In this document: positions 28,770 to 51,151 of the stretch, in pieces
Layout: the number at the start of each line of letters is the position of its first letter
Numbering within the stretch: the first letter of the stretch is position 1
Notes under the pieces: model-generated
The model's database searches: none
The model's input: only the letters and a program-made list of their open reading frames with translations
What the model was told of the DNA's origin: nothing
From: Ianthella basta
Lineage: Eukaryota; Porifera; Demospongiae; Verongiida; Ianthellidae
Assembly (NCBI GenBank): GCA_964019415.1
Contig: OZ025872.1
Span: forward strand, 5,931,822 to 5,995,821
Reading direction: 5' to 3'
Length of the DNA: 64,000 bases
Translations under genes and position numbers: made by a program

Positions 28770-30107
28770 TTATGTACCTTCATCCAATTCAGGATTCTCG
28801 CCTAGATCGGGAGGGGGACGAAAGGCTCCTAAATGCAATCCCCGCTTCTGCCTGCTTTGATCACCTTCATCCACTTCAGGATTCTCGCCTAGATCCGGAG
28901 GGGGGCGAAAGGCTCCTAAATGCAACCCCCGCTTCTGCCTGCTTTGATCACCTTCATCCAATTCAGGATTCTCGCCTAGATCCGGAGGGGGGCGAAAGGC
29001 TCCTAAATGCAATCCCCGCTTCTGCCTGCTTTGATCACCTTCATCCACTTCAGGATTCTCGCCTAGATCCGGAGGGGGGCGAAAGGCTCCTAAATGCAAT
29101 CCCCGCTTCTGCCTGCTTTGATCACCTTCATCCAATTCAGGATTCTCGCCTAGATCCGGAGGGGGGCGAAAGGCTCCTAAATGCAACCCCCGCTTCTGCC
29201 TGCTTTGATCACCTTCGTCCAATTCAGGATTCTCGCCTAGATCAGGAGGGGGGCGAAAGGCTCCTAAATGCAACCCCCGCTTCTGCCTGCTTTGATCACC
29301 TTCGTCCAATTTAGGATTCTCGCCTAGATCAGGAGGGGGGCGAAAGGCTCCTAAATGCAACCCCCGCTTCTGCCTGCTTTGATCACCTTCGTCCAATTCA
29401 GGATTCTCACGTAGATCAGGAGGGGGGCGAAAGGCTCCTAAATGCAACCCCCGCTTCTGCCTGCTTTGATCACCTTCATCCAATTCAGGATTCTCGCCTA
29501 GATCCGGAGGGGGGCGAAAGGCTCCTAAATGCAACCCCCGCTTCTGCCTGCTTTGATCACCTTCATCCAATTCAGGATTCTCGCCTAGATCAGGAGGGGG
29601 GCGAAAGGCTCCTAAATGCAACCCCCGCTTCTGCCTGCTTTGATCACCTTCATCCAATTCAGGATTCTCGCGTAGATCAGGAGGGGGGCGAAAGGCTCCT
29701 AAATGCAACCCCCGCTTCTGCCTGCTTTGATCACCTTCATCTAATTCAGGATTCTCGCCTAGATCAGGAGGGGGACGAAAGGCTCCTAGATGCAACCCCC
29801 GCTTCTGCCTGCTTCGATCACCTTCATCCAATTCAGGATTCTCGCCTAGATTGGGAAGGGAACGAAAGGCTCCTAAATGCAACCCCCGCTTCTGCCTGCT
29901 TCGATCACCTTCATCCAATTCAGGATTCTCGCCTAGATTGGGATGGCGAAAGGCTCCTAAATGCAATCCCTGCTTCTGCCTGCTTTGATCACCTTCATCC
30001 AATTCATGATTCTCCTCAGTGGGGTAAAGCCAAGGACCAGCTGGTGTCGCACTTGACAGTGCACAGCAGATGAGGATCAACTGAATGCTTTTGATAGCAG
30101 TCATCAT
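28770..30107 (-). CDS. Secreted tandem-repeat peptide precursor, copy 1 (14 units)
   Basis: The 445-residue frame starts MMTAIKSIQLILICCALSSA, a clear signal peptide (cleavage probably after SSA or shortly downstream), then a 20-odd-residue leader ending RQKQ. Thirteen complete units of 28-29 residues follow, plus a final partial unit ending ELDEGT. Each unit is GLHLGAFRPPP, an acidic segment DLGENPELDEGDQS and the site RQKR, which fits the furin/prohormone-convertase consensus RxKR. Units 1 and 2 diverge (RHPNL, RSLPNL) while the later ones are nearly identical, so the array is homogenised. No cysteines or membrane segments occur in the units. Processing would release many copies of one peptide. 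I do not recognise the family; a repetitive secreted structural protein is the alternative. The opposite strand is open only because the 87-bp unit is a multiple of three. Confidence 0.8.
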   Translation of the reverse strand: MMTAIKSIQLILICCALSSATPAGPWLYPTEENHELDEGDQSRQKQGLHLGAFRHPNLGENPELDEGDRSRQKRGLHLGAFRSLPNLGENPELDEGDRSRQKRGLHLGAFRPPPDLGENPELDEGDQSRQKRGLHLGAFRPPPDLRENPELDEGDQSRQKRGLHLGAFRPPPDLGENPELDEGDQSRQKRGLHLGAFRPPPDLGENPELDEGDQSRQKRGLHLGAFRPPPDLRENPELDEGDQSRQKRGLHLGAFRPPPDLGENPKLDEGDQSRQKRGLHLGAFRPPPDLGENPELDEGDQSRQKRGLHLGAFRPPPDLGENPELDEGDQSRQKRGLHLGAFRPPPDLGENPEVDEGDQSRQKRGLHLGAFRPPPDLGENPELDEGDQSRQKRGLHLGAFRPPPDLGENPEVDEGDQSRQKRGLHLGAFRPPPDLGENPELDEGT

Positions 30108-30154
30108 TCCTCCCGTCTAGCTGCCAGTATTAGCAATACATTACAAACTTAGCA

Positions 30155-30260
30155 AGCAGCAATATATAACGCAATGGATGAAGCAGTACATGTGCACTGT
30201 CAATATCCTTCTACATAGCTAAGTGCTGTGACATTACTTATCATATGATGACGTCATAGA
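30155..30260 (-). promoter_or_regulatory. Promoter of peptide gene 1: TATA box and CRE
   Basis: On the minus strand a TATATA-type box lies at 30162-30169, about 55 bp upstream of the ATG. A perfect CRE palindrome TGACGTCA is at 30249-30256. The same TATA position is conserved in copies 2, 3 and 4 (48325-48332, 51208-51215, 40347-40354, as TATAAATT). The CRE is conserved in copy 2 (48412-48419). Confidence 0.55.
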
Positions 30261-30330
30261 TCAAAGGCACCGACATGCAGGTTGAAAGGTAACCGCAGAG
30301 GCAATCACATAAGTGCCACCTCCATATATG

Positions 30331-30395
30331 GGGGTGGCGTGGGAGCAAAACGCTTACCAACACTGCCGGTAAGCATTTTGCTCCCACGCCACCCC
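30331..30395. repeat. Hairpin 1a, 28-bp arms
   Basis: Arm 30331-30358 begins ggggtggcgtgggagcaaaa and pairs with 30368-30395, with one mismatch (C opposite A in the middle) and a 9-base loop. Confidence 0.85.
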
Positions 30396-30568
30396 GTACC
30401 TGCCACCTTCCATATATGGCTACTGTGCAACAGGCATACTCTCCAAAGGTCTTGGGGAAGCTCCATTATTTATCATATGATGATGTCATAGTTCAAAGGC
30501 ACTGGCATGCAGGTTGAAAGGTAACCACAGAGGCAATCACATAAGCGCCCTTAACTCTTCCACATACG

Positions 30569-48799: not shown

Positions 48800-49240
48800 T
48801 ATATGCCACCTTCCATATATGGCTACTGTGCAACAGGCATACTTTCCAAAGGTCTTGGGGAAGCTGCATGAAAGCGAGCCAATGGCTTGCAACAAAAGAG
48901 GAGCATGCACATGTTTCAGCCTCCAGTTGCTCCTCAGGCGGAACTCCTAGCAAGTGGAGGGTTCTTTCGACCCCCCCGAACTCCCCTTGATTGTGGGCCT
49001 GTCCTGGGTTATGATCTGCATCTGTCTCATTGTAGTACAGATGTGTTGAAGCCAGTGACTTCCATTCAATAGTAGGAAAGAAGCCAGTCAGGACTAGGAC
49101 TTCAGTAATTAATAGGAACTAGGAAGAAGTCATCGAACGGCAAGGTGCAATCTTCCATACATTGCCCCTTGGCTTCTGTTTTTCGCAAGAGCCAGTCGAA
49201 GATCTTCAAACAAGCCTGCAGCCATCCATGCGCACATTGT
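48800..49240. repeat. Upstream flank duplicated from 30640-31035
   Basis: Shared sequence includes caacaaaagaggagcatgca and cagcctccagttgctcctca. Non-coding. Confidence 0.7.
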
Positions 49241-49294
49241 AGATCCAGCACGGCCACGCATTTGCCATTATCAAATGCACAGTGTATGTATACA

Positions 49295-49509
49295 GGTGTG
49301 TGCATGTGTGTGTGTGTGTGTGTGTGTGTGTGTGTGTGTGTGTGTGTGTGTGTGTGTGTGTGTGTGTGTGTGTGTGTGTGTGTGTGTGTGCTTGTGTGCT
49401 TGTGTGTGTGTGTGTGTGTGTGTGTTTGTGTGTGTTTGTGTGTGTGTGTGTGTGTGTGTGTGTGTGTGTGTGTGTGCATGTGTGTGTGTGTGTGTGTGCT
49501 TGTGTGTGC
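49295..49509. repeat. (TG)n tract, about 215 bp
   Basis: A tg repeat with gcttg and gtttg interruptions, equivalent to 31041-31157. Confidence 0.95.
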
Positions 49510-49561
49510 TTAATCTACATAACTACACTGTAATCAGTCTATATACCTAGTGCCATGAACA

Positions 49562-50137
49562 CCACTGGTACTGTCCATTGTATGACTACTGTATAGTAGT
49601 ACAACTCGGATTCTGTATAGCTGTATATAAGGTCATAGAAGTTGCTTCTCAGGTGGAACTCCTATAGGCAAGTGGGGGAGGGGGGGGTCTTTTGAACCCC
49701 CCACGAACCCCTTTTGCAGACGGGCGGACGTATATGCATGTCCTGTGTGGTGATCTGCACGTGTCTCGTTGCAGTATAGATGTGTTGAAGCCAATGACTT
49801 CCATTCAATAGTAGGAAAGAAGCCAGTCAGGACTAGGACTTCAGTGACTAAAAGTAATTAGGAAGAAGTCATGGAACAGCAAGGCACAGACTTCACATGT
49901 TGCCCCTTGGCTTCTGTTTTTTTCCCAAGAACTAGTCAAAGACCAATAAACAAGTGTGCAGCCATTCACACACATATTGTAGATTCAGCACAGCCTACGC
50001 AGTTGCCATGATCAAATACACAGTGTACATAAAGGCATGTGCATATAATATGTGTGTGTGTGTTTGTGTGTGTTTAATTACACAAATCTACACAACTACG
50101 GTGTAATCAGCCTATATAGTGGTCGAAACGTCCTGTA
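49562..50137. repeat. Segmental duplicate of 36057-36640
   Basis: It matches to cgaaacgtcctgtatcaa and then switches into peptide gene 3. Confidence 0.75.
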
Positions 50138-51151
50138 TCAATGCAACCCCCTCTTCTGCCTGCTTTGATCACCTTCATCCACTTCAGGATTCTCGCCTAG
50201 ATCGGGAGGGGGGCGAAAGGCTCCTAATTGCAACCCCCTCTTCTGCCTGCTTTGATCACCTTCATCCAATTCAGGATTCTCGCCTAGATCGGGAGGGGGG
50301 CGAAAGGCTCCTAAATGCAACCCCCTCTTCTGCCTGCTTTGATCACCTTCATCCAATTCAGGATTCTCGCCTAGATCGGGAGGGGGGCGAAAGGCTCCTA
50401 AATGCAACCCCCGCTTCTGCCTGCTTTGATCACCTTCATCCAATTCAGGATTCTCGCCTAGATCGGGAGAGGGGCGAAAGGCTACTAAATGCAACCCCCG
50501 CTTCTGCCTGCTTTGATCACCTTCATCCAATTCAGGATTCTCGCCTAGATCCGGAGGGGGGCGAAAGGCTCCTAAATGCAACTCCCGCTTCTGCCTGCTT
50601 TGATCACCTGTATCCAATTCAGGATTCTCGCCTAGATCAGGAGGGGGGCGAAAGGCTCCTAAATGCAACCCCCGCTTCTGCCTGCTTTGATCACCTTCAT
50701 CCAATTCAGGATTCTCGCCTAGATCAGGAGGGGGGCGAAAGGCTCCTAAATGCAACCCCCGCTTCTGCCTGCTTTGATCACTTCCATCCAATTCAGGATT
50801 CTTGCCTAGATCAGGAGGGGGGCGAAAGGCTCCTAAATGCAACCCCCGCTTCTGCCTGCTTTGATCGCCTTCATCCAATTCAGGATTCTCGCCTAGATCG
50901 GGAGGGGGACGAAAGGCTCCTAAATGCAATCCCCACTTCTGCCTGCTTTGATCACCTTCATCCAATTCAGGTTTCTCACCTAGATTGGGAGGGCGAAAGG
51001 CTCCTGAACGCAATCCCTGCGGCTGCCTGCTTCGATCGCCTTCATCCAATTCATGATTCTCGCCAGTGGGGTAAAACCAAGGACCAGCTGGTGTCGCACT
51101 TGACAGTGCACAGCAGATGAGGATCAACTGAATGCTTTTGACAGCAGTCAT
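50138..51151 (-). CDS. Secreted tandem-repeat peptide precursor, copy 3 (10 units, 3' truncated)
   Basis: The 337-residue frame starts MTAVKSIQLILICCALSSAT (signal peptide), with a leader ending RQPQ. Ten units of 28-29 residues follow, GLHLGAFRPPP plus the acidic segment, nine of them ending in RQKR. Unit 1 ends RQKW. Variants include ELHLGAF, GLHLVAFRPSP, LDTGDQS and LDGSDQS. After the tenth unit the frame reads GLH and stops, because the sequence joins an unrelated repeat (gtcgaaacgtcctg). The original 3' end is therefore lost but the frame stays open. Most units match copy 1, so the two open copies are recent relatives. Confidence 0.78.
   Translation of the reverse strand: MTAVKSIQLILICCALSSATPAGPWFYPTGENHELDEGDRSRQPQGLRSGAFRPPNLGEKPELDEGDQSRQKWGLHLGAFRPPPDLGENPELDEGDQSRQKRGLHLGAFRPPPDLGKNPELDGSDQSRQKRGLHLGAFRPPPDLGENPELDEGDQSRQKRGLHLGAFRPPPDLGENPELDTGDQSRQKRELHLGAFRPPPDLGENPELDEGDQSRQKRGLHLVAFRPSPDLGENPELDEGDQSRQKRGLHLGAFRPPPDLGENPELDEGDQSRQKRGLHLGAFRPPPDLGENPELDEGDQSRQKRGLQLGAFRPPPDLGENPEVDEGDQSRQKRGLH

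Follow-up and report, generated by a model that had tools for sequence, protein, structure and literature searches.

Candidate genes for secreted, tandemly repeated peptide precursors are clustered in the genome of the sponge Ianthella basta

The 209-Mb genome of Ianthella basta contains seven loci of a peptide-array family, all on one strand of contig C5 and spanning ~74 kb, of which four are open and three are broken. Four of the seven lie in the window, i.e. the whole stretch of 64,000 nucleotides that was analysed, and were listed in the original prediction as related loci with a conserved leader, MTA[IV]KSIQ[LF]ILICCALSS. The leader is present as described and so are all four loci, but only two of them (A and C) are intact, the frame of B being interrupted by stops and D being a relic; the list was also incomplete, as two open loci (E and G) and one broken locus (F) were found just outside the window. 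The features are as follows:

28770..30107, minus strand: precursor gene of locus A, open, 445 amino acids (444 from the second ATG), a leader and then 14 unit boundaries
30105..30215, minus strand: core promoter and short 5' leader sequence of locus A, with a TATA-like box at 30160-30169; ends approximate; common to the other six loci
40236..40440, minus strand: relic locus D, reduced to its promoter and 17 initial codons, one of which is changed
47492..48268, minus strand: broken copy at locus B, 8 unit boundaries with 84-bp spacing
50138..51151, minus strand: precursor gene of locus C, open, 337 amino acids, 11 unit boundaries
51152..51260, minus strand: core promoter of locus C, with TATAAAT at 51209-51215
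C5:6001397-6003163 and C5:6032552-6034108: open loci E and G, just beyond the window
near C5:6010328: broken locus F, just beyond the window

The open frames outside the window encode 588 and 518 amino acids. The core promoter is common to all seven loci, and the signal peptide is present, entire or in part, at each. At locus B the frame ends after 67 amino acids and there are three stops within the seven of its eight units that were examined, so this locus is regarded as a broken copy. The 8 to 14 units per array that had been predicted agree with the unit boundaries found (14 in A, 8 in B, 11 in C) and with the tandem copy numbers given by TRF (14.3, 8.1 and 10.7, with periods of 87, 84 and 87 bp, respectively); all three arrays listed earlier are present, although that of B is dead.

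Satellites and CA repeats abound in the window. Upstream of locus C, a 10-bp satellite begins beyond ~108 bp, and the 3' flank of this locus has no match to the other loci. A downstream extra exon was sought in A, E and G, with no clear exon-like peak in 3' flank identity. The CRE-like sequence TGACGTCA upstream was rejected as a promoter sign of peptide genes: 17 of 25 matches are confined to that end of the query and are spread over several contigs, and the sequence is also missing from loci C, D and G. In support of a sponge origin, the sole animal among the names of the 120 of 231 relatives listed for a neighbouring gene is Dysidea avara (32% identity). Contig C96 has a COX1 gene with nine in-frame TGA codons and a match to ATP-synthase c, a combination that presumably fits sponge mitochondrial DNA, and also fungi.

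The N-terminal leader, conserved between loci, has the basic residue, hydrophobic stretch and small residues of a putative signal peptide; hydropathy at this level is not rare, being reached (2.9) by 26 of 380 frames. AlphaFold2 predicted a leader helix (residues 2-18) and little else, with a mean pLDDT of 38.9 (two rows only). The layout claimed for the precursors, in which a leader, an acidic stretch, RQKR and a repeated peptide are combined, is real in the sequence; from precursors arranged in this way, other animals produce messenger or defence peptides. Units are of 28, 29 or 40 residues (84, 87 or 120 bp), most of them ending in RQKR, and those of the open loci consist of whole codons, except for the last unit of E, which is out of frame. 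KR persists at 13 of 14 sites in A, 9 of 11 in C, 13 of 17 in E and 13 of 13 in G, and RxKR at 9 of the 17 sites in E; units with KR on both sides, as in a repeated-peptide precursor, number 12 in A, 8 in C, 11 in E and 12 in G. Among the broken loci, RQKR still ends five of seven units in B, and KR is found in two of eight units in F.

The segments between sites are 24-36 residues long, mostly acidic and rich in Gly and Pro. Computed average masses are 2660.8 Da for GLHLGAFRPPPDLGENPELDEGDQS and 3696.8 Da for GLHVGAFSPPEQGENVGAFSPPEQGENAELDEGDQS, and the 36-residue peptide of the outer genes doubles the GAFSPPEQGEN core. Four peptides for which values were computed have a pI of 4.05-5.48 and a charge of -1.1 to -8.1 at pH 7; the class of cationic antimicrobial peptides, which carry a net positive charge, was rejected on these values. 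In the units of the open loci as printed for all four, no amidation Gly was found before KR, and S precedes the basic tetrad, the unit cut having itself been placed at S.

Because one open unit implies the others, an open frame across a tandem array is weak evidence of coding when taken alone. Better evidence that the arrays may encode protein comes from the in-frame leader at four loci, units that measure 84, 87 or 120 bp, and the low pN/pS of the 29-residue units (0.20 for 12 units of A, 0.35 for 9 units of C) and of the 40-residue units (0.26 in E, 0.21 in G). Other tests of selection point in different directions. In open locus E, the 28-residue units reach a pN/pS of 0.96 (0.78 without the first two), near the values of the broken loci (0.80 for seven of eight units of B, and 1.88), so that unit type confounds the contrast between open and broken loci. 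Distinct-variant counts give a synonymous excess in the 40-residue units only, and divergence is not significantly lower in the N-terminal coding sequence than in the 3' flank (p 0.07-0.19); coding is supported less strongly by the variant counts, the comparison with the flank and the ratios for single loci than by the first pooled ratios. An antisense reading, nearly open with one stop in 21 units of A and C, was rejected with a pN/pS of 1.89. On balance, the arrays are likely to be coding.

Searches of Pfam (A and C), the PDB (A) and proteins (A) gave nothing above chance that would relate the arrays to a named neuropeptide family, sponge proteins being thinly covered by these searches. Pfam returned for locus C one chance-level match, to Anophelin (E 4.4, far below the cut-off); the protein search returned none at E <= 1 among the 8000 candidates sharing most words; and viral contigs and prokaryote genome contigs contained no relative of A. 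Polyproteins in which repeated units are combined with basic or acidic-spacer processing sites include yeast alpha-factor, fungal Kex2-processed repeat proteins, nematode polyprotein antigens and apidaecin precursors, all of which belong to other phyla and have other sequences than the arrays; apidaecin is cationic, whereas the four computed array peptides have acidic pI. The Antho-RFamide and PRWamide precursors of cnidarians and placozoans, according to the excerpted text of PMC9545775, carry 11-21 near-identical peptides with basic cutting sites and adjacent acidic residues. The arrays are like them in their many near-identical copies, basic sites and acidic residues, but the peptides in that excerpt are short and amidated via Gly, whereas those of the arrays have 24-36 residues and no Gly at the site, and no sequence relation was found. 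Phoenixin and nesfatin, which as far as the authors of PMC9004410 know were the first neuropeptides to be identified in sponges, are likewise products of secreted precursors in a neuron-less animal, with the cleavage sites of phoenixin conserved; they occur broadly across animals and are not described as repeat arrays in the excerpted text of PMC9004410, whereas the array family has so far been seen at one gene cluster only.

Judged by its sequence, the family probably encodes a secreted precursor whose cleavage releases 8-12 copies of an acidic peptide lacking amidation. A TATA-type core promoter, a hydrophobic N-terminal leader and the peptide array are visible in the sequence, from which we infer expression, secretion, cleavage and role. 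The leader would route the chain to the secretory pathway, a furin-type convertase would cleave after RQKR, and a carboxypeptidase would remove the basic residues, each molecule yielding 8-12 peptides such as GLHLGAFRPPPDLGENPELDEGDQS, or the 36-residue relative from the outer genes. Candidate enzyme genes are indicated by proprotein convertase P-domain matches, two on contig C11 and one on C13. Tandem duplication and loss are proposed to have produced the differing peptide types and several dead copies. Given this gene turnover, the differing peptides and the dead copies, an exocrine effector or short-range recognition peptide fits somewhat better than a conserved hormone.

Alternatively, and with distinctly lower probability, the product may be a peptide-hormone or neuropeptide-like signal acting on a receptor of neighbouring cells, as the multicopy precursors of cnidarians and placozoans do. 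Its multicopy layout and acidic residues resemble those described in the excerpted text of PMC9545775, and the genome has, in addition to the convertase matches, copper-monooxygenase domain matches in which amidating and other enzymes are not sorted; the absence of a Gly for amidation, the length of the peptides, the presence of several tandem genes with differing peptides and dead copies, and the lack of a relative in the searches made all argue against such a signal.

It is unlikely that the arrays encode a repeat protein of structural, mucus or matrix type that stays uncut and in which RQKR serves for charge pairing or cross-linking. Acidic and basic stretches do alternate regularly, Q and K can be cross-linked, the predicted model is unstructured, and the persistence of RQKR in most of the units of B that were scored indicates that the site is not the first to be lost, but the retention of KR in all four open loci, compared with two of eight units in broken locus F, favours cleavage. 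Retention of KR is also expected from constraint on whole units for another reason. That the arrays are a non-coding, satellite-like tandem repeat, open by chance, is very improbable: the window is full of satellites and CA repeats, the comparison of coding sequence with flank is weak and the 28-residue units of E are without constraint, but the in-frame leader at four loci, the whole-codon unit variants, the common promoter and a pN/pS of 0.20-0.35 for units of 29 and 40 residues, as opposed to that of the antisense frame, all speak for coding.

The promoter and leader of the putative secreted precursors have a counterpart on the same contig. A gene at C5:6085 kb encodes a Cys-rich protein with an RHKR site, headed by a promoter and leader that are a diverged version of those of the arrays (71% DNA identity). 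This protein is like the arrays in its core promoter, leader and basic site, and frames at C22:468-495 kb are like them in their basic sites (by inspection) but have a different leader; the Cys-rich proteins of both regions are unlike the arrays in having a long prodomain, in most cases a Cys-rich end, and no array.

With lower probability, a neuron-less sponge might make a multicopy, convertase-processed peptide messenger and so have its own young, fast-evolving system of peptide signalling, in which an older secreted protein with a furin-type site lent its promoter and leader to a new repeat peptide. The family may illustrate how a new gene for a secreted peptide has its promoter and leader in common with a different secreted protein, and it supplies defined candidate peptides that can be synthesized for tests in an animal without neurons.

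The 209-Mb assembly containing the window (96 contigs) yielded at least 41 matches, among the best candidates scored, to a query of the leader (a putative signal peptide) plus repeat units. All matches listed lie on the minus strand of C5, the contig whose positions 5931822-5995821 form the window, within a span of about 74 kb, and together with a scan for the leader they define seven loci, A to G:

Window 28770-30107, minus strand: locus A, open frame of 444 aa, from the second ATG
Window 47492-48268, minus strand: locus B, interrupted by stops
Window 50138-51151, minus strand: locus C, open frame of 337 aa
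Window 40236-40440, minus strand: locus D, first 17 codons only
C5:6001397-6003163, minus strand: locus E, open frame of 588 aa, beyond the window
Near C5:6010328, minus strand: locus F, frame lost after 32 aa, beyond the window
C5:6032552-6034108, minus strand: locus G, open frame of 518 aa, beyond the window

The original prediction of four related loci in the window was borne out for all four, but three more (E, F, G) lie outside it; of the three window loci thought to keep the array, A and C are open but B carries stops.

Every open protein (A, C, E and G) begins with MTA-x-KSIQ-x-ILICCALSSATPAGPW, the shared leader predicted at the window loci, followed by a short spacer and the units. 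Units of A and C are mostly of 29 residues, GLHLGAFRPPPDLGENPELDEGDQSRQKR; those of G are mostly of 40 residues, with GAFSPPEQGEN doubled; and those of E are a mixture of 28 and 40 residues. Cleavage-site tetrads were counted in segments of at least 28 residues, including leader segments. RQKR, expected in each unit, makes up most tetrads of A (13/14), C (9/11) and G (11/13) but only 8/17 in E, and KR is retained at 13/14, 9/11, 13/17 and 13/13 candidate sites of A, C, E and G, respectively. KR flanks 12 units on both sides in A, 8 in C, 11 in E and 12 in G; the sites ahead of unit 1 in A, and of units 1 and 2 in C and in E, are degenerate. Four predicted peptides have computed pI values of 4.05-5.48 and charges of -1.1 to -8.1. 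An AlphaFold2 model of A, from a two-sequence alignment, has a helix at residues 2-18 and pLDDT below 50 at 415 of 444 residues.

Pairwise pN/pS ratios, which count one shared change many times, were 0.25 in the sense frame of pooled 29-residue units of A and C (n=21; no stops) and 0.45-2.47, with 1-67 stops, in the five other frames. The ratio was 0.20 for A (12 units) and 0.35 for C (9 units). Pooled 40-residue units of E and G (n=17) gave 0.23 (E 0.26, 7 units; G 0.21, 10 units), against 0.43-1.41 in other frames. Pooled 28-residue units of E and G (n=11) gave 0.73, indistinct from other frames (0.57-1.33); those of E (n=9) gave 0.96, or 0.78 without the first two, and those of G (n=2) 0.34. 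Omitting units that lack a neighbour at standard spacing, broken locus B gave 0.80 (7 of its 8 units, holding 3 stops; RQKR ends 5/7) and broken locus F 1.88 (8 of 10 used; KR kept in 2/8). B and F consist of 28-residue units, so that unit type, as much as breakage, may explain why they differ from A and C. Distinct variants, synonymous to nonsynonymous, numbered 9:14 (29-residue, A and C), 14:15 (40-residue, E and G) and 9:19 (28-residue, E and G), with a synonymous excess below 0.05 only in the 40-residue set (p 0.002-0.02, depending on transition bias; p 0.07-0.50 in the other two). Variants found more than once numbered 6:1, 9:6 and 3:8 in the same order. Divergence in the 3' flank was 10.2-13.0%, against 6.7-8.1% in N-terminal coding sequence (p 0.07-0.19) and 4.5-8.2% in the core promoter (p 0.004-0.32). 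Thus, the arrays are likely coding, under constraint that we judge moderate and confined to the 29- and 40-residue arrays.

At least 107-108 bp upstream of the ATG, with a TATA-like box, are common to all seven loci; above this promoter, sequences are unlike between groups of loci. A hairpin-like repeat with GTGGCGTGGGAGCAAAA arms, adjoining a dispersed stretch with TGACGTCA, lies upstream of A and B (window about 30340, 48540 and 48760), and 10-bp satellites occupy window 51268-52502 (~124 copies, abutting the locus C promoter) and 53683-56981 (~329 copies). A promoter-plus-leader query gave 25 genome matches: the seven loci, one diverged copy, and 17 partial matches that reach the first 54 query bases at most and represent a dispersed repeat. 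The diverged copy led to a second cluster, on contig C22:

C5:6085923-6086080: diverged promoter/leader copy, 71% identical, E 1.1e-13
C22:467982-494853: seven open frames of 265-305 aa, hydrophobic start, most Cys-rich at the end

The diverged copy opens, across two frames, onto a protein that contains an RHKR site, is Cys-rich at its end and has no match in Pfam. The joined frames gave seven long matches (44-46% identity), clustered on C22, where the leader differs from that of the array family. The array family therefore shares its promoter and leader with a secreted-type protein that carries a convertase site.

Locus A has no match in Pfam or PDB, and locus C none above chance in Pfam. No relative of the locus A protein was found among the best 8000 candidates scored in a protein search, nor among contigs of viruses or of prokaryote genomes (records near this genome may be left out). 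The protein collection does contain near relatives of one neighbouring gene, and a relative of A, if predicted, might thus be expected in it; the collections are not known as rich in sponge proteins, which makes absence a weak test. The portions of the literature consulted, including PMC9004410, PMC10580291, PMC9545775 and PMC9816575, describe no such family, which may still be in print.

That neighbour, a 634-aa frame (window 3167-5071) with similar shorter frames at 15269-16083 (minus strand), has 231 relatives; among the best 120, some carry PF13640, the nearest is 95% identical, and Dysidea avara, a demosponge (32% identity), is the sole animal named. The window also contains an ISXO2/IS1595-type transposase domain (8928-9344, plus strand, E 1.6e-17) and a type I hammerhead ribozyme match (60502-60546, plus strand, 37.4 bits, gathering score 34). 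Contig C96 encodes COX1 with 9 in-frame TGA codons and one of the genome's 7 ATP-synthase c matches. Mitochondrial atp9 and TGA as Trp are compatible with sponges, and with fungi too. We regard a demosponge as the likely source of the DNA.

The convertase P-domain family has three matches in the genome, one on C13, in a 6017-residue open frame, and two on C11; scanned alone, one of the C11 pieces exceeds the Pfam cut-off and the other falls just short of it. Frames beside the C11 P-domains seem to encode the terminal part of a catalytic domain and a membrane anchor, and the putative catalytic piece has no match in Pfam or PDB. The copper-monooxygenase C-terminal domain has 19 matches, enzyme types pooled.

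The leader-like start, units, sites, partial constraint and common promoter are features of the sequence itself. If expressed, the precursor chain would enter the secretory pathway, a convertase would cleave behind RQKR, and trimming of the cut peptides would release 8-12 copies per molecule. Taken whole, this precursor reading seems to us rather probable. The peptide may act as a signal; the turnover of the cluster and the presence of more than one peptide type speak somewhat more for an exocrine effector or a recognition peptide.
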